A stretch of 28,843 nucleotides of DNA from a virus: positions 1 to 28,843 of IMG/VR virus record IMGVR_UViG_3300025138_012132. One strand, 5' to 3'. The translations under genes and the position numbers were made by a program. This document shows positions 3,246 to 26,357 of this stretch, one piece after another. Positions within the stretch are counted from its first letter, which is position 1. Each line of letters begins with the position of its first letter. The notes under the pieces were generated by a model. It worked only from the letters and a program-made list of their open reading frames with translations. It was not told where the DNA came from and made no database searches.

Positions 3246-3644
3246 ATGATAAAAGGAGTTATAGCGGGTGCATTTGATATTATACACCCTGGTTACATTA
3301 AAATGTTTAAAGAAGCAAAACAACATTGTGATAGTTTAATTATACTTTTACATACTGACCCTACAATTGAAAGACCAGAAAAATTAAAAGCTATATTAAA
3401 TGTAGAGGATAGAAAAGAAATACTAGAATCTATTAAATATGTTGATGATGTAATTAGTTACACTTTTGAATCTCAATTATATGATTTACTTAAAATGGGT
3501 GAATTTGATATTAGATTTTTAGGAGATGATTATAAAGATGAACCTTTTACGGGAGATAATTTAAGAATTTTAATACATTATTTAAATAGAGACCATGGTT
3601 GGTCATCAACTAAATTTAAAAAATTAATAGCACAATCGTTATGA
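3246..3644 (+). CDS. Cytidylyltransferase-fold nucleotidyltransferase
   Basis: This 132-residue protein has the HxGH-superfamily nucleotidyltransferase layout. GAFDIIHPGYIKM at about residues 7-19 matches GxFDxxHxGH, with the last His replaced by Tyr. A KYVDDV segment follows in mid-protein, and HGWSSTKFKKL near the C-terminus matches the ISSTxxR-type motif. Its length fits single-domain TagD/GCT (glycerol-3-phosphate cytidylyltransferase) or the nucleotidyltransferase domain of HldE. These enzymes join CTP or ATP to a phosphorylated polyol or sugar. I start at the ATG at 3246, which puts the conserved strand at the N-terminus; a longer frame from 3183 would overlap the preceding gene. The gene lies between the DNA polymerase halves, and its TGA overlaps the 43B start (ATGA). 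A cytidylyl- or adenylyl-transferase would fit the downstream glycan island better than a replication operon. Substrate unknown. Confidence 0.82.
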   Translation: MIKGVIAGAFDIIHPGYIKMFKEAKQHCDSLIILLHTDPTIERPEKLKAILNVEDRKEILESIKYVDDVISYTFESQLYDLLKMGEFDIRFLGDDYKDEPFTGDNLRILIHYLNRDHGWSSTKFKKLIAQSL

Positions 3645-4576
3645 AACATTTAGAAGAAACACCTTGGTGGATATGTGATGCAGATGATGAAAACTATTGT
3701 GCTTATGTAGATACAGATTCTAATTATTTTAATGCTGAACCTATATTATTTCATTTATATCCTAATTTTGAAGAATTTACAGATAAAAAAAAAGATGATA
3801 TTTTAGAAAAAGTAGCACTTAAGTATCAAGATGTTATTACTAACCATTATGATAATTTAGCTAGGGATTGTTTTAATGTATCAGAACATAGACTTGAAAT
3901 GAAAACCGAGTGTGTAATCAGATCAGCTTATTTTAGAGCTACTAGGCGTTATGCACAATGGATTACTAAACAAGAAGGCATTGAAAAAGAAACTTTAGAT
4001 ATTAAGGGTTTGGAGTTTATGAAAGCAAATTTTCCACCTATCTTAGGAGAATTTTTTAATGATATTCTTCAACAAGTACTTAAAGGTGAAGAAAAAGATA
4101 ATATAATTTCTCAAATTAAAGTATTTAAAAAACAAATATTAGGCGGAGAAATATCATTAGCAAAATTAGGTAATCCTACTGCAGTTAAAAAATTACAAAA
4201 ATACTCAGGTACAAGTGCCAGAGCAGGTGAAATGTTTACTGAAATACTTAAAGGTGCCCCCGCACCTGTAAGAGCAGCTATTAGATATAATGATTTATTA
4301 AAATTATGGAAATTAGATAGAAAACATAATTTAATTACAATGGCTGATAAAGTCAAATGGATTTATTGTAAAGACAATCCGTATAAAATAGAAGCATTAG
4401 CATTTTTTGATTATGATATTCCTGAAAAAGTACAAGAATTTTTAGACAGATATGCTGATAGACAAAAAGTATTTGATTCAATATTATTAAATAAATTAGA
4501 AGGATTTTTTAGTGATTTACAGTGGTCATTAAATTTAAATCCTTATACAAATGCATTAAGTTCGTTTGAAATTTAA
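3641..4576 (+). CDS. 43B: DNA polymerase gp43, C-terminal piece (palm motif C and thumb)
   Basis: This 311-residue protein begins about 20 residues before the family B motif C, AYVDTDSNYF (catalytic D24 and D26), and continues through the rest of the palm and the thumb. Recognisable thumb features include RLEMKTECVIRSAYFRATRRYA (in T4 gp43 this region contacts primer-template) and a later IYCKDNPYKIEALAFFDYDIP segment. The C-terminus, NALSSFEI, is short and hydrophobic, as is the clamp-binding tail of T4 gp43; the clamp gene follows directly. The protein cannot work without 43A, which supplies motifs A and B. The start ATG overlaps the stop of the nucleotidyltransferase gene (ATGA), so it is probably translated by coupling. 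Split gene 43 is known in some Aeromonas T4-like phages; here two non-endonuclease genes separate the halves. Confidence 0.95.
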   Translation: MKHLEETPWWICDADDENYCAYVDTDSNYFNAEPILFHLYPNFEEFTDKKKDDILEKVALKYQDVITNHYDNLARDCFNVSEHRLEMKTECVIRSAYFRATRRYAQWITKQEGIEKETLDIKGLEFMKANFPPILGEFFNDILQQVLKGEEKDNIISQIKVFKKQILGGEISLAKLGNPTAVKKLQKYSGTSARAGEMFTEILKGAPAPVRAAIRYNDLLKLWKLDRKHNLITMADKVKWIYCKDNPYKIEALAFFDYDIPEKVQEFLDRYADRQKVFDSILLNKLEGFFSDLQWSLNLNPYTNALSSFEI

Positions 4577-4599: not shown

Positions 4600-5322
4600 A
4601 TGATAAATAAAAACACATTAACATCAGTTATTTCCAAATATTACTTAAATGGTTTAAATAATCAGGTAAAATGGAGAATTAAAGATAACCAACTTATTAT
4701 TTATGCGGGTGAATCAGGTAGAGTATGTAAAATAGAACATAGTAATTTTCCATTAGAAGATGCTGAATTAGGTGTATTTGATACCCATAAATTAAGTAAA
4801 TTAATATCTATTACTAATGGTGATTTAATGGTTTCATTAGAAAAAATAAAAGCTGTCTATACTAAAATGCATTTTGCGGATGCTAATTTTGATTTAACTT
4901 ATTCATTAGCTGATATTCTTATTTTAGGTAAAAATACATATTATGAAGATCCTGAATCATTTGAAATGGAGCTTAATTTAACCAGAGAAGATATTGATCA
5001 TTTAATTAAAGCTAAAAGTGCATTAGCAGATGTAAATAATATGTTACTTACAAGTACCACAGATATGGATGGTACAAATATTTGTGAATTTATATTTGGT
5101 GATAATACTGGGTTTTCAAATAAAATAACATACCAAATTCAAGGTAATATATCTAAAAGTGGTATAGAAATACCTTTTGATTCTGATGTGTTTAAAGATA
5201 TCCTAAATGCTAATAAAGATATGGATAGTGGCACATTAAAGCTATCAGAACAAGGAATGTTAAAATTAAACTTCTATTCAGAAGAAGTAAATAGTGAATA
5301 TTTTATCGCAAGGAATGAGTAA
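4600..5322 (+). CDS. 45: Sliding clamp (DNA polymerase processivity factor) gp45
   Basis: This 240-residue protein fits T4 gp45 (228 residues) in length, context and pattern. It has two clamp-like repeats of alternating beta strands and helices, an N-terminal N-x-x-x-L-x-x-V-I-S helix start, and a mid-protein strand-rich stretch with AFDTHKLSKLISI-like character (here VFDTHKLSKLI, about residues 60-70). It also has an acidic, strand-rich C-terminal domain. It would form the trimeric ring that tethers the split polymerase to DNA and, in T4, also activates late transcription. Gene order polymerase, clamp, then clamp loader further on matches the T4-like replication set. It starts 23 bases after 43B, behind a TTCGTATATT element. 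Its last codons overlap the start of the next gene by 8 bases. Confidence 0.87.
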   Translation: MINKNTLTSVISKYYLNGLNNQVKWRIKDNQLIIYAGESGRVCKIEHSNFPLEDAELGVFDTHKLSKLISITNGDLMVSLEKIKAVYTKMHFADANFDLTYSLADILILGKNTYYEDPESFEMELNLTREDIDHLIKAKSALADVNNMLLTSTTDMDGTNICEFIFGDNTGFSNKITYQIQGNISKSGIEIPFDSDVFKDILNANKDMDSGTLKLSEQGMLKLNFYSEEVNSEYFIARNE

Positions 5323-5789: not shown

Positions 5790-6209
5790 ATGAGTACATT
5801 ATTCAATGAACGTACACCGTTCGACTTACTATTCCGTAACCTATTCAAGGCAGACGGTGTTTTTCAACCAACAACGTTTGAAAACAAACAACCACACCCA
5901 CTAGATATTTTTTATGACGATGAAGGACTTCATTTTGAAGTTGCCTGTACCGGTCTAACTAAAAAAGACATCCAACTAGAAATTGATGGGGATCTTTTAA
6001 AGATTATCTATAATAAACCTAATGACGAAGAGTTCGACTATAGTGGCTACATTTACAAAGGATTAGCTTCTAGATCTTTTAATTTAGGGTATAAAGTAGC
6101 ATCTAAATTCGAACTTGAGAAATTAGAAGCAGAAATGAAAGATGGTTTGCTCCATTTATTTATTCCAATTGCGGAATCTAAAAAAGCAAAAACAATTAAA
6201 ATAAAATAA
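5790..6209 (+). CDS. Hsp20/alpha-crystallin small heat shock protein
   Basis: This 139-residue protein has the small heat-shock protein layout. A short N-terminal arm has PFDLLFRNLF (about residues 9-18). The alpha-crystallin domain begins near residue 37 with PLDIFYDDEGLHFEVACTGL and continues with KKDIQLEIDGDLLKI. A C-terminal DGLLHLFIPI strand precedes a lysine-rich tail with the I-x-I tail motif (KTIKIK). Such ATP-independent holdases keep client proteins folding-competent and are widespread in T4-like marine phages, though absent from T4 itself. It heads a chaperone block with GroES and GroEL downstream. Its first 200 bases use many more C-ending codons (TTC, AAC, ACC) than neighbouring genes, perhaps reflecting high expression or a different origin. 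Confidence 0.93.
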   Translation: MSTLFNERTPFDLLFRNLFKADGVFQPTTFENKQPHPLDIFYDDEGLHFEVACTGLTKKDIQLEIDGDLLKIIYNKPNDEEFDYSGYIYKGLASRSFNLGYKVASKFELEKLEAEMKDGLLHLFIPIAESKKAKTIKIK

Positions 6210-6280: not shown

Positions 6281-6601
6281 ATGGCTAGAAAATCAAAATC
6301 TCACACAACAATTTCAGACCCTTTATTGGATCCTTACTACATTACCAAAGATGAACTTTGCTACACAGTAAATGAAAAAATAACTCCTAATAAAGATCAT
6401 TTTAGATCTAAAGGAGGTGGTACTGAATATGCAAAACCCCAAGGATATTATCCTGAATTTCAACAAGCATTAGTAAAAATTGCTAAAGAAAAATTACATA
6501 CTAAAAAAGAGTATAACTCACTTCGTGAGTTTTTAGATGAATTTAAATTAATAGAAACAAATATAAAAAATTATACAAATGGAATTAGAAGCACTATTTG
6601 A
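6281..6601 (+). CDS. Conserved-looking phage protein of unknown function (106 aa)
   Basis: This 106-residue protein begins with a basic, Ser/Thr-rich leader (MARKSKSHTT), then DPLLDPYYITKDELCYTVNEKITP and a Gly-rich turn (RSKGGG). The C-terminal half is helical, with KIAKEKLHTKKEYNSLREFL. There is no signal peptide or transmembrane segment. The 'DPYYITKDxxCYTV' pattern gives the impression of a small protein shared by marine T4-like phages, but I know no name or function for it. It sits between Hsp20 and GroES, and its end overlaps the GroES start by 23 bases, so it is probably cotranscribed with the chaperonins. A chaperone-related role is only suggested by position. Confidence 0.72.
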   Translation: MARKSKSHTTISDPLLDPYYITKDELCYTVNEKITPNKDHFRSKGGGTEYAKPQGYYPEFQQALVKIAKEKLHTKKEYNSLREFLDEFKLIETNIKNYTNGIRSTI

Positions 6602-6956
6602 TGCAGTTATCGTCAAACCCTATGAGTCAGAAGAGACTACTTATGGTAATATTATTGTCCCTGATTTAGGGAAAGAAAAAAACGAATTTGGTGAAGTAAT
6701 AGCAGTAGGACCAGGAAAACCCACTATTACGGGAGAAATTATATCTACAACAATTAAAGTTGGAGATAAAGTTGTTTTACCAACAATGGGTTTTACTAAA
6801 CTTCCATATAATGGAGAGGAATACTATGTAGGTCCCGAAAATCAAATATTGGCTAAAGTAAATAAAAAAAGCGACCTTAATGAAGTGTTAAGTGATACTT
6901 TACAAAATATAAGTACAGAAGAAATTAATAATTTAAAAGATATATCAAATGAGTAA
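6579..6956 (+). CDS. groES: GroES-like co-chaperonin (Cpn10)
   Basis: This 125-residue protein follows the Cpn10 plan. The N-terminal strand is LFDAVIVKPY (about residues 5-14), followed by the mobile loop region TTYGNIIVPDLGKEKNEFGEVIAVGPG; IIVP replaces the bacterial GGIVL, which binds GroEL. The second half contains IKVGDKVVLPTMGFTKLPYNGEEYYVGPENQILAKV, matching the conserved Cpn10 C-terminal strands. About 30 extra residues rich in Asn, Glu and Ser follow, making it longer than host GroES (about 97 residues). T4 uses gp31 (111 residues) as a GroES substitute for folding its major capsid protein; this phage instead carries a GroEL as well. Its end overlaps the GroEL start by 8 bases. Confidence 0.9.
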   Translation: MELEALFDAVIVKPYESEETTYGNIIVPDLGKEKNEFGEVIAVGPGKPTITGEIISTTIKVGDKVVLPTMGFTKLPYNGEEYYVGPENQILAKVNKKSDLNEVLSDTLQNISTEEINNLKDISNE

Positions 6957-8574
6957 ACAAGTTATATTAGGTTCAAAAGCTAGAACTAACCTAGTTAAAG
7001 GAATAGATGTGTTAGCTAATGCTGTAGTATCTACTTTAGGCCCTAATGGGAGAAATGTAGTAATAGCTAATGATCAAGGTGCACCTCAATCAACAAAAGA
7101 TGGTGTTACTGTTGCAAAATCAATCTCATTATCAGACCCAGAACAAGAGTTAGGGGTACAATTAGTAAAACAAGCAGCAATTAAAACAGCAGAAAAAGCA
7201 GGTGATGGAACAACTACATCTACTTTATTAGCTCGTGAAATGATTAAAGCAGGCTTAAATGCCCTAAATAATAATGAAAACGCTGTTCAAATTAAAAGAG
7301 ATATTGATTCTACAGTTAAAGATGTAGTTAATAATCTTAAAAATAAAATTGCAGAAGATATTTCAGGGGAAAAACAATTAGAACAAATTGCTACTATATC
7401 AGCAAATAATGACCCAGAAACTGGAAAGTTAATTGCTACTGCAATAGATAAAGTTGGAATGGAGGGAGTTGTTCATATTGAAGAATCAAAAACTGGAGAA
7501 ACCTATCTTGAAACTGTTGAAGGGTTACAATTTGATAGAGGTTATAAATCACCTTATTTTGTTACAGACAATAATTCAATGACTGCTACATTAGATAATC
7601 CTCTTATTCTTTTAGCAGATCAAAAATTAACACAGGTTAAAGAATTATTACCTATTTTAGAAAGTGTATCCTCACAAGCACGTTCACTTTTAATTATTGC
7701 AGAAGATATTGATAACGAAGCTTTAGCAACTCTTATCGTAAATAAAATGAGAGGTACAATGAAAGTAGTAGCAGTAAAAGCTCCTGATTTTGGTGATAGA
7801 AGAAAATTAGTTTTAGAGGATATAGCTATTACAACCGGAGGTCAAGTTTTTGATAAACAGAAAGGTATGAAACTTGATAAATTTAGTTGGGATTGGTTTG
7901 GTGAAGCTAGGACTGTTACAGTAGGAAAAGAACAAACTACAATTGTAGATGGTAAAGGTGAAATTGAACCTATAGAAGCACGTATAAAAGAATTACAAGG
8001 GCAAATAGATAAAGCGGCTACTCCCTTTGAAGTAGAAAAGTTACAAGAAAGATTAGCTAAGTTTGTAGGTGGAGTTGCTATTATTCATGTAGGTGGTAAT
8101 ACTGAAACTGAAATGAGAGAAAAGAAAGATAGAGTTGATGATGCCTTACATGCTACAAAAGCAGCTATAGAAGAAGGAATAGTACCTGGAGGAGGAACAG
8201 CATTATTATATGCATCATCAGGTATAGAAGCTAAATCAATAGGAGCAGATATTGTAGTAGAAGCATGTGCTAAACCGTTTAATCAAATTTTAGTTAATGC
8301 AGGGTTTGATAAAGTAAAAGGTCAAATTTTAGCTGATAATTTAGTTAATTCGGGTAATGATACATGGGCTGGGTTTAATATCAAAACAGAAAAAACAGTT
8401 GACATGAAAAAATCAGGTATTATTGATCCTACTAAAGTAGTAAGATTAGCCCTTGAAAATGCAGCTTCTGTTGCTGGTACAGTTTTATTAACTGAATGTA
8501 CCGTTGTAAATGAAATTGAAGAAAAAAATAATAACCAACCTCAATTAGACCCATCAATGATGGGGATGATGTAA
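6949..8574 (+). CDS. groEL: GroEL-type chaperonin (Cpn60)
   Basis: This 541-residue protein is essentially full length (E. coli GroEL has 548). Key sites are present: TLGPNGRNVVI (about 29-39), the ATP-site DGVTVAK (D51) and GDGTTT (85-90), the apical-equatorial segment VKAPDFGDRRK, RVDDALHAT with the hydrolytic Asp (about 395-403), and GGGTALL (414-420). The protein ends with a short Met/Gly tail (PSMMGMM), reminiscent of the GGM tail of bacterial chaperonins. It would form a 14-subunit folding chamber with the adjacent GroES-like protein, probably for phage structural proteins. Chaperonins are uncommon in T4-like phages, most of which borrow the host GroEL. The equatorial sequence departs from bacterial consensus at many positions, so this looks like an established viral lineage, not a recent host copy. 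Confidence 0.96.
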   Translation: MSKQVILGSKARTNLVKGIDVLANAVVSTLGPNGRNVVIANDQGAPQSTKDGVTVAKSISLSDPEQELGVQLVKQAAIKTAEKAGDGTTTSTLLAREMIKAGLNALNNNENAVQIKRDIDSTVKDVVNNLKNKIAEDISGEKQLEQIATISANNDPETGKLIATAIDKVGMEGVVHIEESKTGETYLETVEGLQFDRGYKSPYFVTDNNSMTATLDNPLILLADQKLTQVKELLPILESVSSQARSLLIIAEDIDNEALATLIVNKMRGTMKVVAVKAPDFGDRRKLVLEDIAITTGGQVFDKQKGMKLDKFSWDWFGEARTVTVGKEQTTIVDGKGEIEPIEARIKELQGQIDKAATPFEVEKLQERLAKFVGGVAIIHVGGNTETEMREKKDRVDDALHATKAAIEEGIVPGGGTALLYASSGIEAKSIGADIVVEACAKPFNQILVNAGFDKVKGQILADNLVNSGNDTWAGFNIKTEKTVDMKKSGIIDPTKVVRLALENAASVAGTVLLTECTVVNEIEEKNNNQPQLDPSMMGMM

Positions 8575-8598
8575 ATTAATAAATAAATAAAAAAAAAA

Positions 8599-8766
8599 AT
8601 GACAAAACAAGAAATCTTTGAGAGCATTGAAGCGAATTTCAATATCTTAGCAACAGAAAATAGTGGGACTACAAAAACTAGTCAAGCAAAAGCTAGAAAA
8701 GCAGCACAAGCTATTAAACGAGTGATTACAGATTATAAAAAAGCATCTGTGGCCGAGTCAAAATAG
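8599..8766 (+). CDS. Hc1/histone-H1-like small basic protein (55 aa)
   Basis: A 55-residue gene behind a very A-rich leader (8575-8598, repeated AATAAATAAA then an A run). The N-terminal part is a probable helix, EIFESIEANFNILATEN. The C-terminal part is basic: TKTSQAKARKAAQAIKR, then DYKKASVAESK. This arrangement, a short acidic helix followed by 'T/SxxRARKAxxxIxxxxxxxRKxSVxxxK', resembles the small Hc1 (histone H1-like) proteins common in Bacteroidetes, which bind DNA without sequence specificity. It could help compact phage DNA or interact with the host nucleoid. The gene lies between groEL and a small unknown gene upstream of clamp loader 44. The family call is by pattern; a simple charged helical hairpin is the alternative. 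Confidence 0.72.
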   Translation: MTKQEIFESIEANFNILATENSGTTKTSQAKARKAAQAIKRVITDYKKASVAESK

Positions 8767-8767
8767 T

Positions 8768-8777
8768 TTCGTATATT
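8768..8777 (+). promoter_or_regulatory. TTCGTATATT element, copy 3 (touching a start codon)
   Basis: The third exact TTCGTATATT begins one base after the TAG of the Hc1-like gene and runs directly into the ATG at 8778. If it were a -7/-10 box, transcription would start inside the 90-residue gene, so it could serve only the clamp loader further on. If it is an RNA-level operator overlapping the ribosome-binding region, its position is ideal for translational repression. This copy argues against a simple promoter reading of the motif. Confidence 0.35.
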
Positions 8778-9050
8778 ATGGCTAAAATAAAAATTGAAGA
8801 AAAAAATATCCTAATCGCTAGGAGAGTACCTCCTGGCGATAAATGGAGATTAATTGCAAATGAACCAGATGGTCCTATACATAAAACTTTAACTGATGCT
8901 TTAGAAGCATATATGGTTAAAACAGGTTTTAAAGGTAGTTATAGATTAGAACCTCTAAAAGGAAGTTTATATGCAATTGATTCTACAGAAACAGAAGTTA
9001 TACCAGAACCAGAAAAAAAATATTCTATATATGGAGAATTTGGATCATAG
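8778..9050 (+). CDS. Unknown 90-residue protein upstream of clamp loader gp44
   Basis: This protein begins MAKIKIEEKNILIARRVPPGDKW and contains HKTLTDALEAYMVKTGFKG, followed by a strand-like YRLEPLKGSLYAID and an acidic Glu/Pro-rich linker (PEPEKK). It looks like a small alpha/beta cytoplasmic protein without signal peptide or membrane segment. I do not recognise a family. Its last 20 bases overlap the start of gene 44, so the two are probably translationally coupled. A role connected to the replication complex is possible from context only. Confidence 0.75.
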   Translation: MAKIKIEEKNILIARRVPPGDKWRLIANEPDGPIHKTLTDALEAYMVKTGFKGSYRLEPLKGSLYAIDSTETEVIPEPEKKYSIYGEFGS

Positions 9051-9951
9051 TTTATTAGTAGAAAAATATAGACCTAAAACATTAAATAATTATGTTGGTA
9101 ATGAAAACATAAAAAAGTCTATATCTGCATACTTAAACCAAAATGATATACAAAATTTTATATTTTATGGTCCTGCAGGAACTGGTAAAACAACATTAGC
9201 AAAGATTATTGTTAATAGTCTAGATTGTGACCATTTATATATTAATGCTTCAGATGAACGTGGTATTGAAACTATTAGAGATAAAGTTTCTAGTTTTGCA
9301 TCTGTTGCATCATTTAAACCGCTTAAAGTGGTTATTTTAGATGAAGCAGATTTTCTTACAATTCAAGCACAAGCTTCACTTAGGAATATAATTGAAACAT
9401 TTTCACGTACTACAAGATTTATTATGACTTGTAATTTTGTAGAACGTATTATTGATCCCTTACAATCTAGATGCCAAGTACTTAAAATTGTACCCCCAAC
9501 TAAAAAAGATGTTGCTAAACATTTAAATTGGATCTTACAACAAGAATCAATTGAACATAATATAAATGATTTAGCACCCTTAGTTAACCAATATTATCCT
9601 GATTTACGTAAATGTATTAATACTATACAATTATCTACTTTAGATAGTAAATTAAAATTAGATAAATCAATACTTATATCATCAAATTATATTGATAAAG
9701 TAATTAATGAATTATCTAAGGGTAATAAAGTATCATCATTTAATACTATACGTCAAATTATAGCAGATGCTAATGTAGATGATTTTGATGAATTATTTAG
9801 AGCATTATATGACCGTTCATCAGAATATTATAAAGATAAAGAAGGTACAGCTACAGCCGCAATAAATGAAGCCCAATATAAAGCAAATTTCCGTATTGAC
9901 AAGGAAATAAATATAATGTCATTAATTCAAATTTTAATAAAATATAAATAA
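9031..9951 (+). CDS. 44: Clamp loader large subunit gp44 (AAA+ ATPase)
   Basis: This 306-residue AAA+ protein matches T4 gp44 (319 residues). Walker A is GPAGTGKTT (about residues 47-55) and Walker B is VILDEAD (101-107). Sensor 1 lies at FIMTCNF (130-136) and the SRC arginine-finger motif at S146-R147-C148. The N-terminal LVEKYRPKTLNNYVG is the canonical clamp-loader opening. It would assemble with gp62 to load the gp45 ring onto primed DNA using ATP. I start at the ATG at 9031, directly before the conserved YRP region; the longer frame from 8971 would overlap the previous gene by 80 bases. It is followed 7 bases later by a small unknown gene and then gene 62. Confidence 0.95.
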   Translation: MENLDHSLLVEKYRPKTLNNYVGNENIKKSISAYLNQNDIQNFIFYGPAGTGKTTLAKIIVNSLDCDHLYINASDERGIETIRDKVSSFASVASFKPLKVVILDEADFLTIQAQASLRNIIETFSRTTRFIMTCNFVERIIDPLQSRCQVLKIVPPTKKDVAKHLNWILQQESIEHNINDLAPLVNQYYPDLRKCINTIQLSTLDSKLKLDKSILISSNYIDKVINELSKGNKVSSFNTIRQIIADANVDDFDELFRALYDRSSEYYKDKEGTATAAINEAQYKANFRIDKEINIMSLIQILIKYK

Positions 9952-12281: not shown

Positions 12282-12482
12282 ATGACAAATAAAAAACCAA
12301 TGACACTAACGAGTGTCAAAGTCAAAAGCGATTTATTCGAGAATTTTAAAATTGAATGTGTAAAACGTAAATTTTCCTTCCAAAAACTTGCTGACCGTAG
12401 CTTATTTTTGTATCTTACAGATGAAGATTTCCGAAAACAAATTACTAATCAAATTAATCTCGAAATAAAGGGCGATGAATAA
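12282..12482 (+). CDS. Small ribbon-helix-helix-like protein (66 aa), putative regulator
   Basis: This 66-residue protein has a short strand (TLTSVKVKSDLFENFKIEC) followed by two helices (KRKFSFQKLADRSLFLYL, then DEDFRKQITNQ). Strand, helix, helix with a 'KVxxDLFxxFK' opening is the layout of ribbon-helix-helix DNA-binding proteins (Arc/MetJ/CopG), which act as dimers. Related small proteins are common in marine T4-like phages, but their targets are unknown. It sits directly after the TATATGTATAATA element and its stop overlaps the first glycosyltransferase gene by 8 bases, so it could regulate the island or itself. Its codon use is less AT-biased than the next genes. Confidence 0.62.
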   Translation: MTNKKPMTLTSVKVKSDLFENFKIECVKRKFSFQKLADRSLFLYLTDEDFRKQITNQINLEIKGDE

Positions 12483-13923
12483 AGACTTTAAGTATATCCC
12501 TAAGGATAAAAGAAAAAAAATACTCTTAATATGTGATGATATTAGAGTACACTCCGGTGTAGCTAACGTAGCAAAAGAAGTAGTACTAAGAACAACTCAA
12601 CATTTTAATTGGGTACAGATAGCAGGAGCTATTAACCACCCAGAAAAGGGAAAAAGATTAGAATTATCTGAAGATACAAATAAATTTACTGGCCTAAATG
12701 ATGCATCAGTAGTAATTTATCCAGTTGATGGTTATGGAAATAATGCATTATTAAGACAACTAATTAATACAGAAAAACCTGATGCCTTATTTTTAATAAC
12801 AGACCCAAGATATTTTACTTATATTTTTAATATGGAACAGGAAATTAGAAAAAAAATTCCAATTATTTATTTAAATATTTGGGATGATTACCCTGCTCCA
12901 ATGTATAATAGACCATATTATGAATCATGTGATCTATTATTAGGTATTTCAAAACAAACAGTAAATATTAATAAGTTAGTACTTGAGGATGCAGGGAAAA
13001 ATAAAATATTTGAATATGTACCTCATGGTATAAATTCCGAATTATATTTTCCTATTAAGAAAGATGATAAATATATAAAAGAATATAATAATTTAAAAAA
13101 ACAACTTTTTGGTGATGTAGATCCTAAGTTTGTTTTATTTTTTAATTCTAGAAACATTAGAAGAAAACAAATCCCAGACACAATGCTAGCTTTTAGAACA
13201 TTTTTAGATTCACTACCTAAAGAAGAAGCTAAAAAATGTTATTTAATACTTCATACTGAATTAGTTTCAGATGCAGGTACTGATCTCGGAAAAGTGAAGG
13301 AATATCTTTTTGATGGAGAATATGAGGATAATATAAAATTCTCAACTAATAAATTAACTCAAGCTCAATTAAATTTCTTTTATAATATAGCGGATGTTCA
13401 AATATTATTAACTTCTAATGAAGGATGGGGTTTAACTATCACTGAGGCTTTATTTGCAGGTACTCCTTTTATTGCTAATGTAACAGGAGGGATGCAAGAT
13501 CAAATGAGATTTGAAGATGAAGAAGGTAATTGGTTTACTCCTAATGCTAATATACCCTCAAACCATAGAGGTACTTTTAAAAAACATGGTGAATGGGCTT
13601 TCCCCGTTTATCCAACTTCTCGTTCTATTCAAGGTTCTCCCTCTACACCCTATATCTATGATGATAGATGTAAATGGGAAGATGCTGCTGAAAAAATAAA
13701 GGAATGTTATAAATTAGGCAGAGAAGAATTAAAACGTAGAGGATTAAAGGGTAGAGAATGGGCCATGTCTGATGAAGCCAAATTTACTACAGAAGAACAA
13801 GGAAAAACTATTATTAAATCCATAGATAAATTATTTGAAACTTGGAAACCAAGGGAAAAATATGAATTAATCAATGCTACTAAGTATAAAGGGAGATTTT
13901 TAAACCATAAAGTTATATATTAA
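12475..13923 (+). CDS. GT-B glycosyltransferase, GT4-like (482 aa)
   Basis: The protein has the two-domain GT-B layout. The N-terminal Rossmann half opens with KKILLICDDIRVHSGVANVA (about residues 14-33), the glycine-containing acceptor loop of GT4 enzymes. The C-terminal donor-binding half contains KFVLFFNSRNIRRKQIPDTM and the E-x7-E motif at E316-E324 (NEGWGLTITEALFAGTP). An insert rich in Gly, Ser and Pro at about 360-400 is unusual in length. No membrane segment or signal peptide is seen, so it is probably cytoplasmic. It transfers a sugar from a nucleotide donor; donor and acceptor are unknown. It is the first glycan gene of the island and is followed after 1 base by another GT4-like gene. 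Confidence 0.87.
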   Translation: MNKDFKYIPKDKRKKILLICDDIRVHSGVANVAKEVVLRTTQHFNWVQIAGAINHPEKGKRLELSEDTNKFTGLNDASVVIYPVDGYGNNALLRQLINTEKPDALFLITDPRYFTYIFNMEQEIRKKIPIIYLNIWDDYPAPMYNRPYYESCDLLLGISKQTVNINKLVLEDAGKNKIFEYVPHGINSELYFPIKKDDKYIKEYNNLKKQLFGDVDPKFVLFFNSRNIRRKQIPDTMLAFRTFLDSLPKEEAKKCYLILHTELVSDAGTDLGKVKEYLFDGEYEDNIKFSTNKLTQAQLNFFYNIADVQILLTSNEGWGLTITEALFAGTPFIANVTGGMQDQMRFEDEEGNWFTPNANIPSNHRGTFKKHGEWAFPVYPTSRSIQGSPSTPYIYDDRCKWEDAAEKIKECYKLGREELKRRGLKGREWAMSDEAKFTTEEQGKTIIKSIDKLFETWKPREKYELINATKYKGRFLNHKVIY

Positions 13924-13924
13924 G

Positions 13925-15214
13925 ATGAATAAACCAAGATTTGTTATAAGCTGTCCATTTGACACCTACTCGGGATACGGAGGTAGATCCAGGGATATAG
14001 TTAAAGCTATTATAGAATTAGATAAATATGAAGTTCAACTTTTACCTCAAAAGTGGGGGGAAACCTCATGGGGTTTTTGTAAAGATCACCCACAATGGGA
14101 ATTTTTATATAAATATACTGCTCCCCAAAATTGGCAACAGTCAAAACCTGACATTTGGATGCAAATTACTATCCCAAATGAATTTATGCCTGTAGGAAAA
14201 TATAATATAGGTCTAACAGCAGGTATTGAAGCTACAGCATGCAAACCAGAATGGATAGAAGGTTTAAATAGAATGAATATAAATTGGGTATCTTCTAAGT
14301 TTGCTAAACAAACTTTTGAAAGTATGGCTTATAAAAAAGAACATCCTGAAACTAAACAAAATATGGGGGAAGTTAGATGTCAAAAACCTATTCATGTTAT
14401 ATTTGAAGGAGCAGATTTAACAACATATAAGCCTCTTAAACCTAATGAAATCAAAACTATTAATTTAAAAGATATAAAAGAAAGTTTTTGTTATTTATTT
14501 GTAGGACATTGGATGAATGGGGAATTTGGTCATGATAGAAAAAATGTTAGTTTATTAATAAAAGCTTTTTATGAAACTTTTAAAAATAAAAAAAATCCTC
14601 CTGCGCTTATATTAAAATCATCAGTAGGGGTAGCTTCTTATATGAGTAGAGATGAAATTTTAAATAGAATTAAGAATGTTCGACAATCATTGGGTAAAAA
14701 TAGATTACCTAATATTTATCTACTAAATGGAGAATTTGATGATAAAGAAATAAATGAACTCTATAATAACCCTAAAGTAAAAGCAATGGTTAGTTTAACT
14801 AAAGGGGAAGGATTTGGTAGACCCTTACTTGAATTTAGTCTAACAGGTAAACCTGTTATAGCCTCTAACTGGTCGGGACATACAGATTTCCTTCATCCTG
14901 ATAATAATATTTTACTTCCGGGAGAACTAGAAAATGTCCACCATAGTGCTGCTAATAATTGGTTAATTACAGAAGCACAATGGTTTAAAGTAAGTACTCC
15001 CCATGTAGGACAAGCTTTTAAAGATGTATTTAAAAACTATAAAAAATACTATAAACTTTCTCAAAAGCAAAAATATTATGCTAAAAAGAATTTTAGTTAT
15101 GAGAAAATGAAGGAATTAGTAGATACTATTTTAAATAATAATCTCCCTCAGTTTGCTCAGCAAGTTGAACTTACATTACCTAAATTAAATTTACCTAAAC
15201 TAAATAAAGTTTAA
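13925..15214 (+). CDS. GT-B glycosyltransferase, GT4-like (429 aa)
   Basis: This is a second GT-B enzyme, unlike its neighbour except in the core. The N-terminus (RFVISCPFDTYSGYGGRSRDIVKAI) has the GT4-type Gly-rich acceptor loop. The C-terminal half contains CYLFVGHWMNGEFGHDRKNV and the E-x7-E motif at E295-E303 (KGEGFGRPLLEFSLTGKPVIA), followed by SNWSGHTDFL. The C-terminus ends in a repeated LPKLN pattern (LTLPKLNLPKLNKV), perhaps a flexible tail. It is probably a cytoplasmic retaining glycosyltransferase with unknown substrates. Its stop lies one base before the next start. Confidence 0.86.
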   Translation: MNKPRFVISCPFDTYSGYGGRSRDIVKAIIELDKYEVQLLPQKWGETSWGFCKDHPQWEFLYKYTAPQNWQQSKPDIWMQITIPNEFMPVGKYNIGLTAGIEATACKPEWIEGLNRMNINWVSSKFAKQTFESMAYKKEHPETKQNMGEVRCQKPIHVIFEGADLTTYKPLKPNEIKTINLKDIKESFCYLFVGHWMNGEFGHDRKNVSLLIKAFYETFKNKKNPPALILKSSVGVASYMSRDEILNRIKNVRQSLGKNRLPNIYLLNGEFDDKEINELYNNPKVKAMVSLTKGEGFGRPLLEFSLTGKPVIASNWSGHTDFLHPDNNILLPGELENVHHSAANNWLITEAQWFKVSTPHVGQAFKDVFKNYKKYYKLSQKQKYYAKKNFSYEKMKELVDTILNNNLPQFAQQVELTLPKLNLPKLNKV

Positions 15215-15215
15215 T

Positions 15216-15635
15216 ATGAATTATGATGAAATAATAAATTGCCCTAAATCAGGTGGTGATTTATGTTATAAAGTAGAAGTTAGTAAAGATATAACAAATT
15301 ATATGAGTTTATCTTGTGGGTTTTGGACTAATTCTTTAATGATAAAGGATTCCAAATTTTATAATGAACAAATACTAACTTTACCTGAATTATATAAAGA
15401 TTTAGCCTGGACCGATCCCGAAACCAATTTAATATGGATCCCTAATACTATAAATATAAAAGAAAAAGGTATGGTATTTGCCGATGGTACAAGTAGTAAT
15501 GATTGGAAATGGGCTGGTGTTAAAGCAATTCCCGATGAAGAAAAAGAATTTAAAACGGATATGTCTACTATAAGGCATTTTGAAGAACGTGATTATATAG
15601 AAGCTTTATCTTATATTGGAGTATTACCTGAATAA
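15216..15635 (+). CDS. Unknown 139-residue protein with a degenerate zinc-ribbon-like N-terminus
   Basis: The N-terminus has INCPKSGGDLCYKVEV followed about 15 residues later by MSLSCGFWTN. The cysteines at about 9, 17 and 33 recall a zinc ribbon in which some ligands are lost (CPKS instead of CPxC, SCGF for the second knuckle). The remainder has LPELYKDLAWTDPETNLIWIPN, KGMVFADGTSSNDWKWAGVKA and a helical end. The 'LPELYKDL...WIPN...INIxEKGxxFxxGTS' pattern looks like a conserved phage family, but I know no function. It interrupts a run of glycosyltransferases, with 1- to 3-base spacing on both sides, so it is cotranscribed with them. Confidence 0.7.
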   Translation: MNYDEIINCPKSGGDLCYKVEVSKDITNYMSLSCGFWTNSLMIKDSKFYNEQILTLPELYKDLAWTDPETNLIWIPNTINIKEKGMVFADGTSSNDWKWAGVKAIPDEEKEFKTDMSTIRHFEERDYIEALSYIGVLPE

Positions 15636-15638
15636 AAT

Positions 15639-16262
15639 ATGAAAATAAGTTATGCAATAACGGTATGTAATGAATACGAAGAGATTCAGAAACTTATATC
15701 TACTCTTATGTTAAATATAAGAGAAGAGGATGAAGTTATAGTATTATTTGATAAACAAGCTGGTACGGAACAAGTTTGGGATTATTTAGTTGGATTACAA
15801 ACTCAAGATTTAATAAAAGCTTATACCGAATCTTTTAAAAATCATTTTGCTGATTGGAAAAATAAGTTAACTGAGTATTGTACCGGAGATTATATATTTC
15901 AAATAGATGCTGATGAAATCCCACATGAATCTTTAATTGATAATTTACCTTATATATTAGAATCTAACCCCAATAATGAAGTTTATTTAGTCCCCAGAGT
16001 AAACACAGTAGAAGGATTAACTATAGAACATATTAATAAGTGGGGATGGAAAGTAGATAGTAAAGGCTGGGTTAACTACCCAGACTACCAATGGAGAATT
16101 TGGAAAAATAAATCTGAAATCAAATGGAAAAATAAAGTACATGAGGTTTTAGAAGGACATAAAACATATTCTGCATTACCCCCTCAAGAAGAATTATCTT
16201 TATATCACCCAAAAACAATAAAAAAACAAGAAAAACAAAATTCATATTATGAAACACTCTAA
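15639..16262 (+). CDS. GT2-like glycosyltransferase (207 aa)
   Basis: A short GT-A fold enzyme. The N-terminus KISYAITVCNEYEEIQKLI is the opening typical of family 2, and the metal/donor-binding DxD motif is IFQIDADEIP (D90, D92). An aromatic-rich acceptor region follows (WGWKVDSKGWVNYPDYQWRIW), then KVHEVLEGHKTY, a 'VHE' pattern seen in GT2 enzymes of the SunS/WaaE type. At 207 residues it is smaller than the usual 250-300. It probably transfers one sugar in the cytoplasm. Its 3' end overlaps the dehydratase/aminotransferase gene by 14 bases. Confidence 0.84.
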   Translation: MKISYAITVCNEYEEIQKLISTLMLNIREEDEVIVLFDKQAGTEQVWDYLVGLQTQDLIKAYTESFKNHFADWKNKLTEYCTGDYIFQIDADEIPHESLIDNLPYILESNPNNEVYLVPRVNTVEGLTIEHINKWGWKVDSKGWVNYPDYQWRIWKNKSEIKWKNKVHEVLEGHKTYSALPPQEELSLYHPKTIKKQEKQNSYYETL

Positions 16263-17406
16263 AAAAGTTTGGTATGCCCCCAATAGATTAGAAGCTTATG
16301 GGGAAAAAGAAATTAAAGCAGTAGAAAAAAGCCTTAGAGATGGTTGGTTAGCTGGATTTGGACCAAGTACTATAAAGTTTGAAAAGAAAATTGCTAAAGA
16401 ATTTGGTAAAAAATATGGTGTTTTTGTTAACTCTGGTTCATCTGCTTGTTTACTTGCTATAGCAGCTTTGGATTTACCTAAGGGGTGTAAAATAATAACC
16501 CCATCCCTTACATTTTCTACTACATTAGCCCCAATTATACAACTAGGTTATAAACCTATATTTATAGATTCTAATTTAACTTCTTATGTTCCTACAGTAG
16601 AAGATATTTTAGATAAAATAACCCCTGAAGTTAAAGCTATAATGGTACCTAATTTAATAGGTAATAAGCCAGATTGGGCCTTATTAAAAGCCGGGTTAGA
16701 GATTTTAGATAGAAAGGATATTTTTATAATTGAAGACTCAGCTGACACCATAACATATACAAAAGAATCAGATGTTTCTACAACTAGTTTTTATGCTTCT
16801 CATGTTATAACAGCTGGTGGAATGGGAGGAATGGTAATGTTTAATGATAAAAAACAAGTTAAAAAAGCACTACAATATAGAGATTGGGGTCGTATTGGCG
16901 ATAATAGTGAAAACATGGATGAAAGATTTGCTCATGAGGTTGATGGCATTCCTTACGACTATAAGTTTTTATATGGAGTTTTAGGGTATAATATGAAATG
17001 TAGTGAAATGAGTGCTGCATTTGGTTTAGTCCAATTAGAACGTTTTCAAACATTTAAACAAAAACGTAGAGATAATATTGAACGTTATTTAGAAAATTTA
17101 AAAGATGTTAAAGAATTAATACTACCAGATGATAGTATTAAACCAAATTGGTTAGCTATACCTTTTCAAACAAAACGTAGATTAGAACTACTAACCTTTT
17201 TAGAAAATAATAACATACAAACACGAGTTACATTTGCAGGTAATGTTACTAGGCATCCTATTTATAGAGAATATCTACAAGATTTTAAAAATGCAGATGC
17301 TGTTATGGAAAATGGATTTTTATTAGGGGCTCACCATGGAATGGATTTAGAAGACGTTGATTATGTTTGTAATAAAATAAAAGAATTTTTTGGATATGTC
17401 AAATAA
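16249..17406 (+). CDS. DegT/DnrJ-family PLP enzyme of the His-type (RfbH/ColD-like sugar 3-dehydratase)
   Basis: This 385-residue protein has the complete fold type I PLP layout: GWLAGFGPSTIKFEKKIA near the start, NSGSSACLLA for phosphate contacts, FIIEDSADTI with the ring-nitrogen Asp (D163), and SFYASHVITAGGMGG. In ordinary DegT aminotransferases the sixth position of that last motif is the PLP lysine; here it is His185. The same swap is found in RfbH (CDP-4-keto-6-deoxyglucose 3-dehydratase, SFYPAHHIT) and ColD, which remove the C3 hydroxyl instead of aminating. The next segment, RDWGR, and GYNMKCSEMSAAFGLVQLERF also fit RfbH-like enzymes, but the cysteine-rich iron-sulfur loop of RfbH is missing (RIGDNSENMDERF instead). 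I infer a 3-dehydratase or related enzyme making a 3-deoxy sugar. Substrate unknown. Confidence 0.85.
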   Translation: MKHSKKVWYAPNRLEAYGEKEIKAVEKSLRDGWLAGFGPSTIKFEKKIAKEFGKKYGVFVNSGSSACLLAIAALDLPKGCKIITPSLTFSTTLAPIIQLGYKPIFIDSNLTSYVPTVEDILDKITPEVKAIMVPNLIGNKPDWALLKAGLEILDRKDIFIIEDSADTITYTKESDVSTTSFYASHVITAGGMGGMVMFNDKKQVKKALQYRDWGRIGDNSENMDERFAHEVDGIPYDYKFLYGVLGYNMKCSEMSAAFGLVQLERFQTFKQKRRDNIERYLENLKDVKELILPDDSIKPNWLAIPFQTKRRLELLTFLENNNIQTRVTFAGNVTRHPIYREYLQDFKNADAVMENGFLLGAHHGMDLEDVDYVCNKIKEFFGYVK

Positions 17407-18358
17407 ACCTCGTTTAGTAATATCTGATATGTATAGAGCAAGAAATAAAGTTGCACTTTTTGCTATACACCAAGCTTTAGATAAATTTAAAGAATTAGAT
17501 TTAGAATTTCATATACTATGGGACGACCCTGAATATAAAGATGAATGGACAAAAAAATTTAGTAATTTAGAAAAATATATAGTATCTTACTCTAAAGAAC
17601 AACTTGATGATTATTGTAGGGAATGGGGGATAAGCGAAGAAACAATTTCGGATTTTAAAAACTTTAAGTCTATTTATTTTGTAATTCATGGGCATTATTT
17701 AAAAAGTAAAAATATATGTAATTACTATCTAATTTATGATGATGATATTATACTACAAGATAATTTAAGTGAACTTATTAATTGCTTAAAAAGTAAAACA
17801 CCAGTTTTAATAAAAGAACCACTAAACCCAGGGTGTGATAAAGTTTTATTGGAAAAATTAATAAAACTATATGGGGGCCAACCAGCTGCAGATTATTATC
17901 TAAGTATTAATCCTAAGTTATTAGGATTTAATGCTGGTTTTCAGGGGATGAGTTTGGATATGTATGAAGATTTTTTAACTAAAGAAGGTTTTCAACTTTT
18001 ACTAAATATTTTTTATTTAAAGGGTATATATGATGAGAATAGTAAAGAAATAACGGGCCCACTTAGAACATCAATAGATACTCAACAACAATCTTTTTTT
18101 GGTGTTATGAATATTATTAGATCTAAAACTAAACCACACATATTATCAGAAGATTATTTTACTTGTCCTAATTGGGGTACACACCCTGAATATGGAGATA
18201 TAAATACTTCTAATGAATATCAAGGTTGGGATATAAATCTAAAATCAAAAGTAGTACATTTTATAGGACACACACAATTAGATGGTAAATACTATGGAAA
18301 ACCTAAAATTTTTCATGATTTAGTAGATAAATATTTAGAAAAACATAATTTATTATGA
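17396..18358 (+). CDS. Putative GT-A type glycosyltransferase with DDD motif (320 aa)
   Basis: I start at ATG 17396; a TTG two codons upstream is less likely. The N-terminal half resembles a GT-A Rossmann domain, with RLVISDMYRARNKVALFAIHQ. The acidic motif is YYLIYDDDIILQDNL (D115-D117), as in GT8 or GT2-type metal-binding DxD loops. Later segments GFNAGFQGMSLDMYEDF and WGTHPEYGDIN, then VVHFIGHTQLDGKYYGKP, resemble acceptor-side and metal-ligand His regions of GT8-like enzymes (a H-x-x-G-x-x-KPW-like ending). I assign it to glycosyltransferases in general; the exact family is uncertain. It overlaps the previous gene by 11 bases and the next by 4 (ATGA). Confidence 0.74.
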   Translation: MSNKPRLVISDMYRARNKVALFAIHQALDKFKELDLEFHILWDDPEYKDEWTKKFSNLEKYIVSYSKEQLDDYCREWGISEETISDFKNFKSIYFVIHGHYLKSKNICNYYLIYDDDIILQDNLSELINCLKSKTPVLIKEPLNPGCDKVLLEKLIKLYGGQPAADYYLSINPKLLGFNAGFQGMSLDMYEDFLTKEGFQLLLNIFYLKGIYDENSKEITGPLRTSIDTQQQSFFGVMNIIRSKTKPHILSEDYFTCPNWGTHPEYGDINTSNEYQGWDINLKSKVVHFIGHTQLDGKYYGKPKIFHDLVDKYLEKHNLL

Positions 18359-19338
18359 AAATAACATTTCTTACTGAAATGGGGTTTGAGGGTAAAATAC
18401 CTTCTAACCATCCTAATATGAGAACAGAATTTGCTTGGATGCATGCTTTAGATGCTGAACATAATAATTTACGTAATTACCAAAACATAAAAAATCAAGA
18501 TCATGTTTTTATAATTTTTCCTAAGGGAGAAACTTTTTTAAATGCCGTAGGAGTTAAATTAATAGATAAAAATAACCCAACTTCAGATTTATTATCTTCT
18601 GATTTTATGGATATTTTAAAATCTAATAATAAAAAAATCCATTATATACAGGAAGGGCCTTCTTGGTTTTTTAATGATTATGAAATTATGGATCAATTCA
18701 ATTTTTACAATCTATTATCTAAATGTGATAGTATTTTTGCCCATAACGACCATGATATTAATTTTTATAAGGGCTTATTTTCTAATAAAAAAGTAAACTC
18801 TATAAAAACTCTTCTAATAGAAACTCTTATATCCCATATAACTCCCAACCCAGAAGAAAAAGTTATAATAGGAGGAAATTTTGCTAAATGGTATGGAGGA
18901 TTTCAAAGTTATATAATAGCGGATATTTTTGAAGCAGATAAATGGACCCAAGATTCCCATGCAAAAAGAACTAATGAACATAATATACATGATTTAAATC
19001 ATCTTCAACGACTACCATGGGCTGAATGGATGAATGTATTATCTACGTTTAAATACGCTGTACATTTAATGCCTACCATAGCAGCAGGAACATTTAGTTT
19101 AAATTGTGCTTATTTTGGAATACCTTGTATAGGAAATAAAAAAGTTGATACCCAAAGAATTTGCCATCCTGATTTGTCAGTTGATGTGGAAGATATAGAA
19201 AAAGCTCGTATATTAGCTAGTAGATTAAAAAATGATAAAGAATTTTATTTACATTGTGGCACCACTGCAAAAGAAAACTATAAAAAATATTATAATTTAG
19301 AAAAATGGAAAACAGAAATAAAGTTACAGTTGTCCTAA
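18355..19338 (+). CDS. Putative GT-B glycosyltransferase (327 aa)
   Basis: This protein begins MKITFLTEMGFEGKIPSNHPN and has a central HYIQEGPSWFFNDYE. Its C-terminal donor-domain-like half contains KVIIGGNFAKWYGGFQSYIIA, LPWAEWMNVLSTFKYAVHL and MPTIAAGTFSLNCAYFGIPCI, followed by QRICHPDLSV. The last stretch resembles the donor-site helix of GT4-type enzymes, where the first Glu of the usual E-x7-E is replaced (here A-G-T-F-S-L-N). Loss of that Glu means the catalytic mechanism may differ, or the similarity is only structural. It lies between two other glycosyltransferases, and the next start is 34 bases inside its 3' end. Confidence 0.7.
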   Translation: MKITFLTEMGFEGKIPSNHPNMRTEFAWMHALDAEHNNLRNYQNIKNQDHVFIIFPKGETFLNAVGVKLIDKNNPTSDLLSSDFMDILKSNNKKIHYIQEGPSWFFNDYEIMDQFNFYNLLSKCDSIFAHNDHDINFYKGLFSNKKVNSIKTLLIETLISHITPNPEEKVIIGGNFAKWYGGFQSYIIADIFEADKWTQDSHAKRTNEHNIHDLNHLQRLPWAEWMNVLSTFKYAVHLMPTIAAGTFSLNCAYFGIPCIGNKKVDTQRICHPDLSVDVEDIEKARILASRLKNDKEFYLHCGTTAKENYKKYYNLEKWKTEIKLQLS

Positions 19339-20090
19339 ATGGTTTTAGAAGAGGAGATAATCTTAATGAACAATTAGAAGCTCTAAATAACCAAACAGTT
19401 AAACCAGATGAAATTCTTCTTTGGTATAACAACCCGGGAGATGGTACTGATCCTAACTATGATATTGGAACTAAAATTCCTGCTGCATACTGCAATTACA
19501 ACTGGGGTGTTTGGGCACGATTTTATTTTGCTATGAACGCAAAAAATCCTTATGTATGTGTATTTGATGATGATACCATACCAGGAAAAAGATGGTTAGA
19601 AAATTGTTTTAATACTATGAAAACTCATGAAGGATTGTTAGGAACTGTTGGTTTACTTTATTTAAATCCCCTTCCCCCTCAAAATTCTTCTTATTACGAA
19701 CATTATCTTAGATTTGGATGGGTACCAGCAGGTAATAATGAAATACCTGTTAAAGTAGATTTAGTAGGTCATAGTTGGTTTTTTAAAAGAGAATGGTTAT
19801 CTCATATGGTAAGAGAATTACCAGACCCTAAGTATAATACTTGTGGTGAAGATATGCATTTTTCTTATATGTTGCAGAAGTATGCTAATATTCCTACTTA
19901 TGTTCCTCCTCATCCTCCATCTGATAAAGAACTTTGGGGCAGTACAAAGGGCAGCATATATGGGGGTGATAACGTATCGCTTTGGGAAACTAATCAAGCA
20001 GGGGTAGATGGAACTCCTTTTAAACAATTAATGAATCAATATTTTAAAGAACAAAGAATAAAAGGCTGGAAATTAGAAAATGAAAAATAA
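19305..20090 (+). CDS. GT2-like glycosyltransferase (261 aa)
   Basis: A clear GT-A, family-2-like enzyme. KVTVVLNGFRRGDNLNEQLEALNNQT at the N-terminus is the nucleotide-binding opening, and the DxD motif is YVCVFDDDTIPGKRW (D88-D90). DLVGHSWFFKREWL and the catalytic-region CGEDMHFSYMLQKYA (the 'ED' typical of GT2 catalytic bases) follow. It ends with a proline-rich loop (YVPPHPPSDK). The start overlaps the preceding gene by 34 bases, the largest overlap in the island; no later Met before the conserved strand could replace it. Substrates are unknown. Confidence 0.88.
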   Translation: MENRNKVTVVLNGFRRGDNLNEQLEALNNQTVKPDEILLWYNNPGDGTDPNYDIGTKIPAAYCNYNWGVWARFYFAMNAKNPYVCVFDDDTIPGKRWLENCFNTMKTHEGLLGTVGLLYLNPLPPQNSSYYEHYLRFGWVPAGNNEIPVKVDLVGHSWFFKREWLSHMVRELPDPKYNTCGEDMHFSYMLQKYANIPTYVPPHPPSDKELWGSTKGSIYGGDNVSLWETNQAGVDGTPFKQLMNQYFKEQRIKGWKLENEK

Positions 20091-21090
20091 ACCAATATTA
20101 TTATGTTTTGGAACAAGACCTGAGTGGCTAAAAATAAAACCTTTAGTAAAACTTATGGCTAGAAATGATTATAAACTTTTATTTACAGGCCAACACCCAG
20201 ATTTATTAAAGAATATTAATGTTGATTATGAAATTAAAATGAGTAAAAGTTCTAATAGATTAGATTCTATTATATCAGATTGTATGGTACAATTTCCTAC
20301 TAGTGATGATTTTGATAAAGTATTAGTACAGGGAGATACTGGTTCTGCTTTTGGTTGTGCCTTAGCTGCTTTTAATAGAAAATTAAAAATTTATTATTTA
20401 GAAGCAGGCTTAAGAAGTAAAAATTTAGACCATCCTTACCCTGAAGAAGGTTACAGACAAATGATAGCTAGAATATCTAATGTTAATTTCTCACCTACTA
20501 GTATATCAGCACAAAATTTATTTGATGAAAAAGCTAATGGGGATACTTTTGTAGTAGGAAATTCTGTATTAGATAATTTACTAGAATATAAGGACAAATG
20601 TGAATATACTAATAAAGTATTAATTACACTACATAGAAGAGAAAATCACCATTGGATGGATCAATGGTTTAATAAAATTAATAGGTTAGCAAAAGATAAT
20701 CCTGATTTAGAATTTATATTACCTATCCATCCAAACCCCAATGTACAAAAACATAGACATTTACTTACTAATATAAAAGTAGTAGAACCTTTATCCCATT
20801 CCAAATTATTAGATATTTTAGTAAAATGTAAATTAATAATTAGTGATAGTGGGGGATTACAGGAAGAGGGAGCATTTTTAAATAAAAAAGTTATTGTATG
20901 TAGAGAAACCACAGAACGACCGGAAGCTATTTATACTGGTCATTTGTTTTTATGTAAAACACCTAATAATTTAGAAAAAATATTTGGAGAAATAAATAAA
21001 AATCCGTATATTGACACTAAATGCCCTTATGGTAAAGGTAATACCTCTAATTTAGTTTATAATATTTTAATGGATGAAAAAGGAATTTAA
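20080..21090 (+). CDS. wecB: Non-hydrolysing UDP-N-acetylglucosamine 2-epimerase (WecB-like)
   Basis: This 336-residue protein carries the complete set of WecB/MnaA signatures: LLCFGTRPEWLKIKPLV (GTRPE, 11-15), VQGDTGSAFG (D86), YLEAGLRS (E108), PEEGYRQMIARIS (E122/E123), TLHRREN (H185) and ISDSGGLQEEGAFLNK, followed by RETTERPEA. These residues bind UDP and catalyse C2 epimerisation of UDP-GlcNAc to UDP-ManNAc in the cytoplasm. It is about 35 residues shorter than bacterial WecB (about 375), with loss apparently spread over loops. UDP-ManNAc or a relative would be a donor for the neighbouring glycosyltransferases, or a precursor for further modification. A hydrolysing NeuC-type role cannot be fully excluded. 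It overlaps both neighbouring genes. Confidence 0.92.
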   Translation: MKNKPILLCFGTRPEWLKIKPLVKLMARNDYKLLFTGQHPDLLKNINVDYEIKMSKSSNRLDSIISDCMVQFPTSDDFDKVLVQGDTGSAFGCALAAFNRKLKIYYLEAGLRSKNLDHPYPEEGYRQMIARISNVNFSPTSISAQNLFDEKANGDTFVVGNSVLDNLLEYKDKCEYTNKVLITLHRRENHHWMDQWFNKINRLAKDNPDLEFILPIHPNPNVQKHRHLLTNIKVVEPLSHSKLLDILVKCKLIISDSGGLQEEGAFLNKKVIVCRETTERPEAIYTGHLFLCKTPNNLEKIFGEINKNPYIDTKCPYGKGNTSNLVYNILMDEKGI

Positions 21091-21853: not shown

Positions 21854-22227
21854 TAAAATGTACAAAGGAATATTGGGAGTTTGTAAGAACTCTCAGAAAC
21901 GATGAAAGAGTTATAAGTGGGTTCATAAAATCAGTACACATTACTGAGGAAATGCAAACCAATTATATGAAAGGTAATTCACACTACTATCGAATTGGTT
22001 TACTTAATGGTGAACCCGCTGGTTATGTTGGAGTTATTGAAGATGATATCAGAGTATGTACTCATCCTAATTATCAAGGTAGGGGAGTGGGTAAGTTTAT
22101 GATTAATGAAATTATGAATGAGGAACCAACCGCATTTGCAAAAGTGAAAATGGATAATGAAGCTAGTATCAAATTATTTGAAGCTTGTGGATTTACAAAG
22201 AAATTTTATATATTAACAAAAGATTAA
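21838..22227 (+). CDS. GNAT-family N-acetyltransferase
   Basis: This 129-residue protein is a compact GNAT domain. The central strand and acetyl-CoA pyrophosphate loop read VCTHPNYQGRGVGKFMINEIM (Q-x-x-G-x-G at about 80-85). The final segments KVKMDNEASIKLFEACGF and TKKF are the conserved C-terminal N-x-x-S...Y/F-x-x-x-GF pattern. It would move an acetyl group from acetyl-CoA to an amine. Because a compact DegT aminotransferase begins 2 bases after its stop, the likely substrate is an aminosugar nucleotide, as in the WecE/WecD pair. Two in-frame ATGs (21838, 21844) compete as start. Confidence 0.87.
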   Translation: MYMELVKCTKEYWEFVRTLRNDERVISGFIKSVHITEEMQTNYMKGNSHYYRIGLLNGEPAGYVGVIEDDIRVCTHPNYQGRGVGKFMINEIMNEEPTAFAKVKMDNEASIKLFEACGFTKKFYILTKD

Positions 22228-22229
22228 AT

Positions 22230-22856: not shown

Positions 22857-22861
22857 TTGAT

Positions 22862-26355: not shown

Positions 26356-26357
26356 TA

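Follow-up and report, generated by a model that had tools for sequence, protein, structure and literature searches.

The stretch of DNA analysed here (the window; 28,843 nucleotides, positions 1 to 28,843 of the IMG/VR virus record IMGVR_UViG_3300025138_012132) carries, in this order, hsp20, a 106-aa ORF, groES, groEL, a small gene referred to below as hc1, a 90-aa ORF, and a clamp-loader ATPase, with the small clamp-loader subunit further on. The genes groES (Cpn10; 6579-6956) and groEL (6949-8574), the latter being the usual upstream neighbor of hc1 in the window lineage, were assigned from family matches. They are followed on the same (+) strand by hc1 (8599-8766), by the 90-aa ORF (8778-9050), which was taken from the ORF list and has no assigned function, and by the large, ATPase subunit of the clamp loader (9031-9951), for which the start at 9031 was chosen by eye and the mechanically predicted ORF begins at 8971. 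The preliminary description had placed hc1 between groEL and the clamp-loader genes; groEL does end 24 bases upstream, and on the other side the 90-aa ORF intervenes before the clamp loader. The hsp20 chaperone gene (5790-6209) lies upstream of groES and groEL, and three of four successive ORFs are therefore chaperone genes.

An A-rich leader, attaataaataaataaaaaaaaaa (8575-8598, + strand), separates the stop codon of groEL from the start codon of hc1 and is alike in relatives. Directly 3' of hc1, on the same strand, is the junction TTTCGTATATTATG (8767-8780), whose last bases are the start codon for the 90-aa ORF. It recurs directly 3' of groEL in relatives that lack hc1 and may serve as a promoter or as a translation signal; a single exact copy is present in the window. 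A strong GC hairpin (-14.8 to -18.2 kcal/mol, z near -3) was located directly 3' of hc1 in the three relatives examined, where hairpins of the GGGGGAGCUUGUCUCCCCC type were observed at L004:5160-5230, L061:5160-5230, and L017:5160-5230; no hairpin or terminator directly follows hc1 in the window.

A family-B DNA polymerase is encoded upstream of the hc1 region and is seemingly split into two ORFs, at 1230-2972 and 3641-4576, which correspond to positions 30-567 and 565-842, respectively, of the 856 positions of PHROG 262. The two halves are separated by an ORF of 87 aa and one resembling a cytidylyltransferase. A long run of sugar genes occupies positions 12475-28405 and includes glycosyltransferases, an RfbH/PseC-like aminotransferase, a UDP-GlcNAc 2-epimerase, a nucleotide-sugar epimerase, and a HAD phosphatase fused to a nucleotidyltransferase (24306-25667). 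Judged by gene content alone, the window is compatible with the label T4-like.

Conservation and accessory distribution of hc1

The ORF at 8599-8766 begins with ATG, ends with TAG, and comprises 55 codons, exactly as had been claimed. Its product, MTKQEIFESIEANFNILATENSGTTKTSQAKARKAAQAIKRVITDYKKASVAESK, has a pI of 9.7 and a net charge of +4. Residues 1-22 contain one K/R and four D/E, and residues 23-55 contain nine of the ten K/R and two D/E, which bears out the acidic first helix and basic second helix of the preliminary description. Relatives of the 55-aa protein in IMG/VR, confirmed by tblastn, numbered 222 when the single sequence was used as query and 359 when an alignment was used. The start and length of the ORF are kept in nearly all of them, and the collected relatives range from 53 to 62 aa; some members of the family are near neutral, with a lowest pI of 5.8. 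Purifying selection was evident among 51 distinct close sequences, with a mean pN/pS of 0.23, a median dN/dS of 0.15, and 7878, 6967, and 20306 pairwise changes at codon positions 1, 2, and 3, respectively. A chance ORF is ruled out by this selection, by the number of relatives, and by synteny, and hc1 is a genuine conserved gene under purifying selection. The suggestion that it would be missed by standard gene callers was too strong: the homolog in Flavobacterium phage immuto (QQO91754.1) is annotated as a hypothetical protein, and gene callers therefore do detect hc1, only the name being missing. A bacterial MAG also includes a contig (L084; JAAEPJ010000368.1), probably of phage origin, that encodes a copy 87% identical to hc1.

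A survey based on groEL covered 80 related loci, of which 50 contained hc1 and 30 cleanly lacked it. At the loci without hc1, (T)TTCGTATATTATG comes almost immediately after the groEL stop; the same motif lies 3' of hc1 in the window, where it opens the next gene. When presence and absence were placed on the GroEL tree, 10 changes were needed, of which at least 6 were forced by well-supported branches; no copy of hc1 was found elsewhere in the 14 searched contigs that lack it at this locus (fragments of 14-119 kb). Thus, hc1 is an accessory gene that has been repeatedly gained or lost, with at least six such events.

Among the 241 relatives with sequence available upstream, groEL is the immediate upstream neighbor in 154 and the clamp-loader large subunit in 8, these counts being dependent on the query and including near-copies. 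In other contexts, the sampled neighbors that gave a match were a DnaB-like helicase, ribonucleotide reductase, UvsX, thymidylate synthase, a clamp loader, and one dehydrogenase. Three neighbors had no match, and no head or packaging genes were recognized among those sampled. Neighbors of the replication and nucleotide type indicate an early or middle setting in DNA metabolism and argue mildly against a role in packaging.

Descent from the Hc1 family and predicted fold

Hc1-domain proteins are annotated in Bacteroidota, and a resemblance of the phage protein to them had been proposed together with a profile search against Hc1 (PF07432). That search returned no match for the 55-aa sequence itself, even at E<=10, and the Pfam gathering score of 23.5 bits was not reached. 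With the window sequence alone as query, family matches in Pfam, PHROGs, and NCBIfam got no lower than E=0.08; taken literally, the Pfam check therefore fails. An EF-hand_SWAP70_N match (E=0.084) and PHROG matches, which had E>=0.017 for any member of the hc1 family, were discarded as noise, and sequence searches of the PDB gave nothing useful, whether the query was the protein or its profile. A tiny phylum that was reached from a single MAG match yielded no Hc1.

The resemblance stands by descent. Four relatives 73-76% identical to the window protein exceed the PF07432 threshold over residues 4/5-55 (L067, 23.9 bits; L074, 25.6; L080, 24.9; L083, 24.3), and the proteins of immuto and LR745206 score 23.5 and 30.7 bits, respectively. 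Further relatives match more strongly, including L133, which is 58% identical to the window protein (E=1.8e-8), L160 (E=2.8e-10), and the intermediate L262 (E=1.3e-18), in which the cellular-type loop TKAAGTRARKA (motif KAAGTRARKA) is combined with the phage-type ending EYRKASVEESK. A profile-profile comparison by hhalign between the window clade and a set of Bacteroidota plasmid 'histone H1' and Lak phage sequences gave a probability of 94.6 and E=6.6e-8 over 52 columns, the cellular-type set being drawn from plasmid and phage records instead of Bacteroidota genomes. An approximate cellular consensus served only to fetch real sequences, and the real sequences alone were compared. Sequence comparison thus places the phage protein, by descent, in the Hc1 family and relates it to the small 'histone H1' of Bacteroidota (PF07432). 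The window protein has no PF07432 match of its own; its place in the family was therefore assigned by descent, as a divergent relative, rather than by Pfam recognition. The Pfam model misses a large divergent clade of phage proteins.

The AlphaFold2 model of the window protein, based on an 88-sequence alignment, has helices at residues 3-20 and 26-54 (pLDDT 95.6), and a control with a cellular-type sequence gave the same hairpin architecture, with helices at 2-25 and 28-57 (pLDDT 97.0). The helical hairpin anticipated in the preliminary description is therefore reproduced in both models, and the window protein is predicted to fold as a two-helix hairpin of about 55-60 residues, as expected of an Hc1 domain. 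Two helices and no strands were modeled, which does not correspond to the winged-helix domain of eukaryotic linker histone H1, and the window protein has no linker-histone match in Pfam. Foldseek searches returned only generic helical hairpins from the PDB (E>=1.5), and the best match in BFVD (E=0.83) did not reach significance, given how short the hairpin is; the top BFVD neighbor by E-value was 'Histone H1 [uncultured virus]' (TM 0.86, probability 0.98). The lack of significance in these searches arises because the helical hairpin is a common shape.

Over the 88 aligned sequences, K26 and R33 never vary, and a basic residue occupies each of positions 34, 41, 47, and 55 in at least 94% of cases. 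In helix 2, the basic moment (angle 17, P=0.02) is directed about 170 degrees away from the hydrophobic moment (angle 208, P=0.012), the basic moment being of modest significance only. On the model, helix 2 appears to bear a conserved basic face formed by K26, R33, K34, K40, R41, K47, K48, and K55, which is the type of surface that would be expected to contact DNA.

Candidate roles in the infected cell

The reading that we favor, by a modest measure, is that the hc1 product, a divergent Hc1-domain protein of Bacteroidota phages that has no C-terminal tail, acts as a small nucleoid-type protein in the infected cell, presumably by binding DNA. As a dimer held together by its hydrophobic faces, the 55-aa protein would place helix 2 with its basic face along the DNA backbone. 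It may act inside the infected cell during the early or middle phase of replication, on phage or host DNA, and its effect could be to tune DNA compaction or transcription. Sister phages without hc1 exist, and the gene would for this reason aid phage fitness rather than be essential. Membership in the Hc1 family alone is no proof that a tail-less domain binds DNA; the DNA-binding region of chlamydial Hc1 lies in a C-terminal part (PMC3469542), which the phage protein lacks. The low net charge of +4, the near-neutral members of the family, and the modest significance of the basic moment also weigh against the favored reading. Within a limited coverage of the literature, no papers testing the function of tail-less Bacteroidota Hc1 were found.

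Foremost among the rival explanations is that the phage protein mimics or partners the Hc1 (histone H1) of the host, forming mixed dimers with it or displacing it, so that the host nucleoid is reorganized or silenced without strong DNA binding by the phage protein itself. Its homology to a host-type protein is as this would predict, and repeated gain and loss of hc1 would suit a use that depends on the host. The basic face of helix 2, however, is strongly conserved and would not be needed by a decoy that only dimerizes, and at about 20-25% identity to the cellular type, the window clade is highly diverged, so that we regard this explanation as unlikely. A more specific version, in which the widespread tail-less phage Hc1 is a counter-nucleoid tool that pairs with or displaces host histone H1 early in infection, silencing or opening the host chromosome, and is gained or lost according to host type, is offered as speculation and is somewhat less probable still.

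A role in the virion, coating or condensing the genome as it is packaged, was suggested by the moraphage authors for their Hc1 (PMC12619734), and the small size and basic character of the product would fit such a role. Close relatives that do without hc1 altogether speak against it, as do the recognizable neighbors in several lineages, which are chaperonin, clamp-loader, helicase, recombinase, and nucleotide-metabolism genes and include no head or packaging genes; we consider it improbable. Action on something other than DNA, whether by binding RNA or by assisting GroEL from within the groES-groEL transcription unit, is given an equally low likelihood. The tight linkage to groEL, seen in 154 of the 241 relatives whose upstream sequence is available, and titles cited in PMC3469542, which report interaction of chlamydial Hc1 with both DNA and RNA, are in its favor, but homologs in other phage lineages have no groEL nearby and lie beside replication genes, and hc1 is missing from 30 of the 80 related groEL loci. 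The phage version of Hc1 is widespread, short, and under selection, and sister phages differ naturally in whether they carry it; it offers a handy route to the function of the tail-less Hc1 domain, and the isolate immuto, whose laboratory host is Flavobacterium sp. LMO8, makes this question accessible to experiment.

Comparison with known H1-like proteins

Phage-borne PF07432 proteins are already in the literature: one is encoded in each of four complete moraphage genomes, and genome compaction during packaging was suggested by the authors (PMC12619734, 2025). The moraphages are described there as tailed phages of large size whose predicted hosts are Bacteroidota; their H1-like proteins are likened to the window protein here on the published description. 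That paper makes no mention of groEL, and its passages on the H1-like proteins report no pattern of presence and absence. New here are the large divergent clade below the Pfam threshold, the link to groES and groEL, the pattern of presence and absence, and the replication-gene neighborhoods.

The Prevotella Lak megaphages (MK250015-MK250029) encode a PF07432 protein of the cellular type (Pfam E=3.8e-22), which is much nearer to the bacterial proteins than the window protein is. The gene is located at 5001-5171 of the Prevotella phage Lak-C1 sequence (L331) and is present in the other Lak genomes, the records being without annotation. In two Flavobacteriaceae plasmids (L325:1501-1677 and L326:1501-1677), a histone H1 gene was observed with a topoisomerase C-terminal-repeat gene on one side and an S24 peptidase/Y-family polymerase pair on the other.

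Chlamydial Hc1 (HctA) is related to the phage protein through the Hc1 domain family. It is about 126 aa long and has a C-terminal DNA-binding domain (PMC3469542), whereas the phage protein has no such basic, nucleic-acid-binding tail and ends with the Hc1 domain at residue 55. The 'histone H1' proteins of Bacteroidota (PF07432; 57-58 aa; for example, WP_131541116.1 of Myroides and WP_007750534.1 of Bacteroides) are like the window protein in length and two-helix architecture and share with it the helix 2 pattern ARK...K...(Y/F)(R/K)K.S(V/L)...K. They are separated from it by the low identity given above and by the loop, in which GTTKxSQ of the window clade, 4 columns shorter, replaces GNKAAGT. 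The isolate homolog in immuto is 51% identical to the window protein and directly follows groES and groEL, as in the window; it differs in its length of 57 aa, in a short C-terminal extension, and in not lying beside clamp-loader genes.
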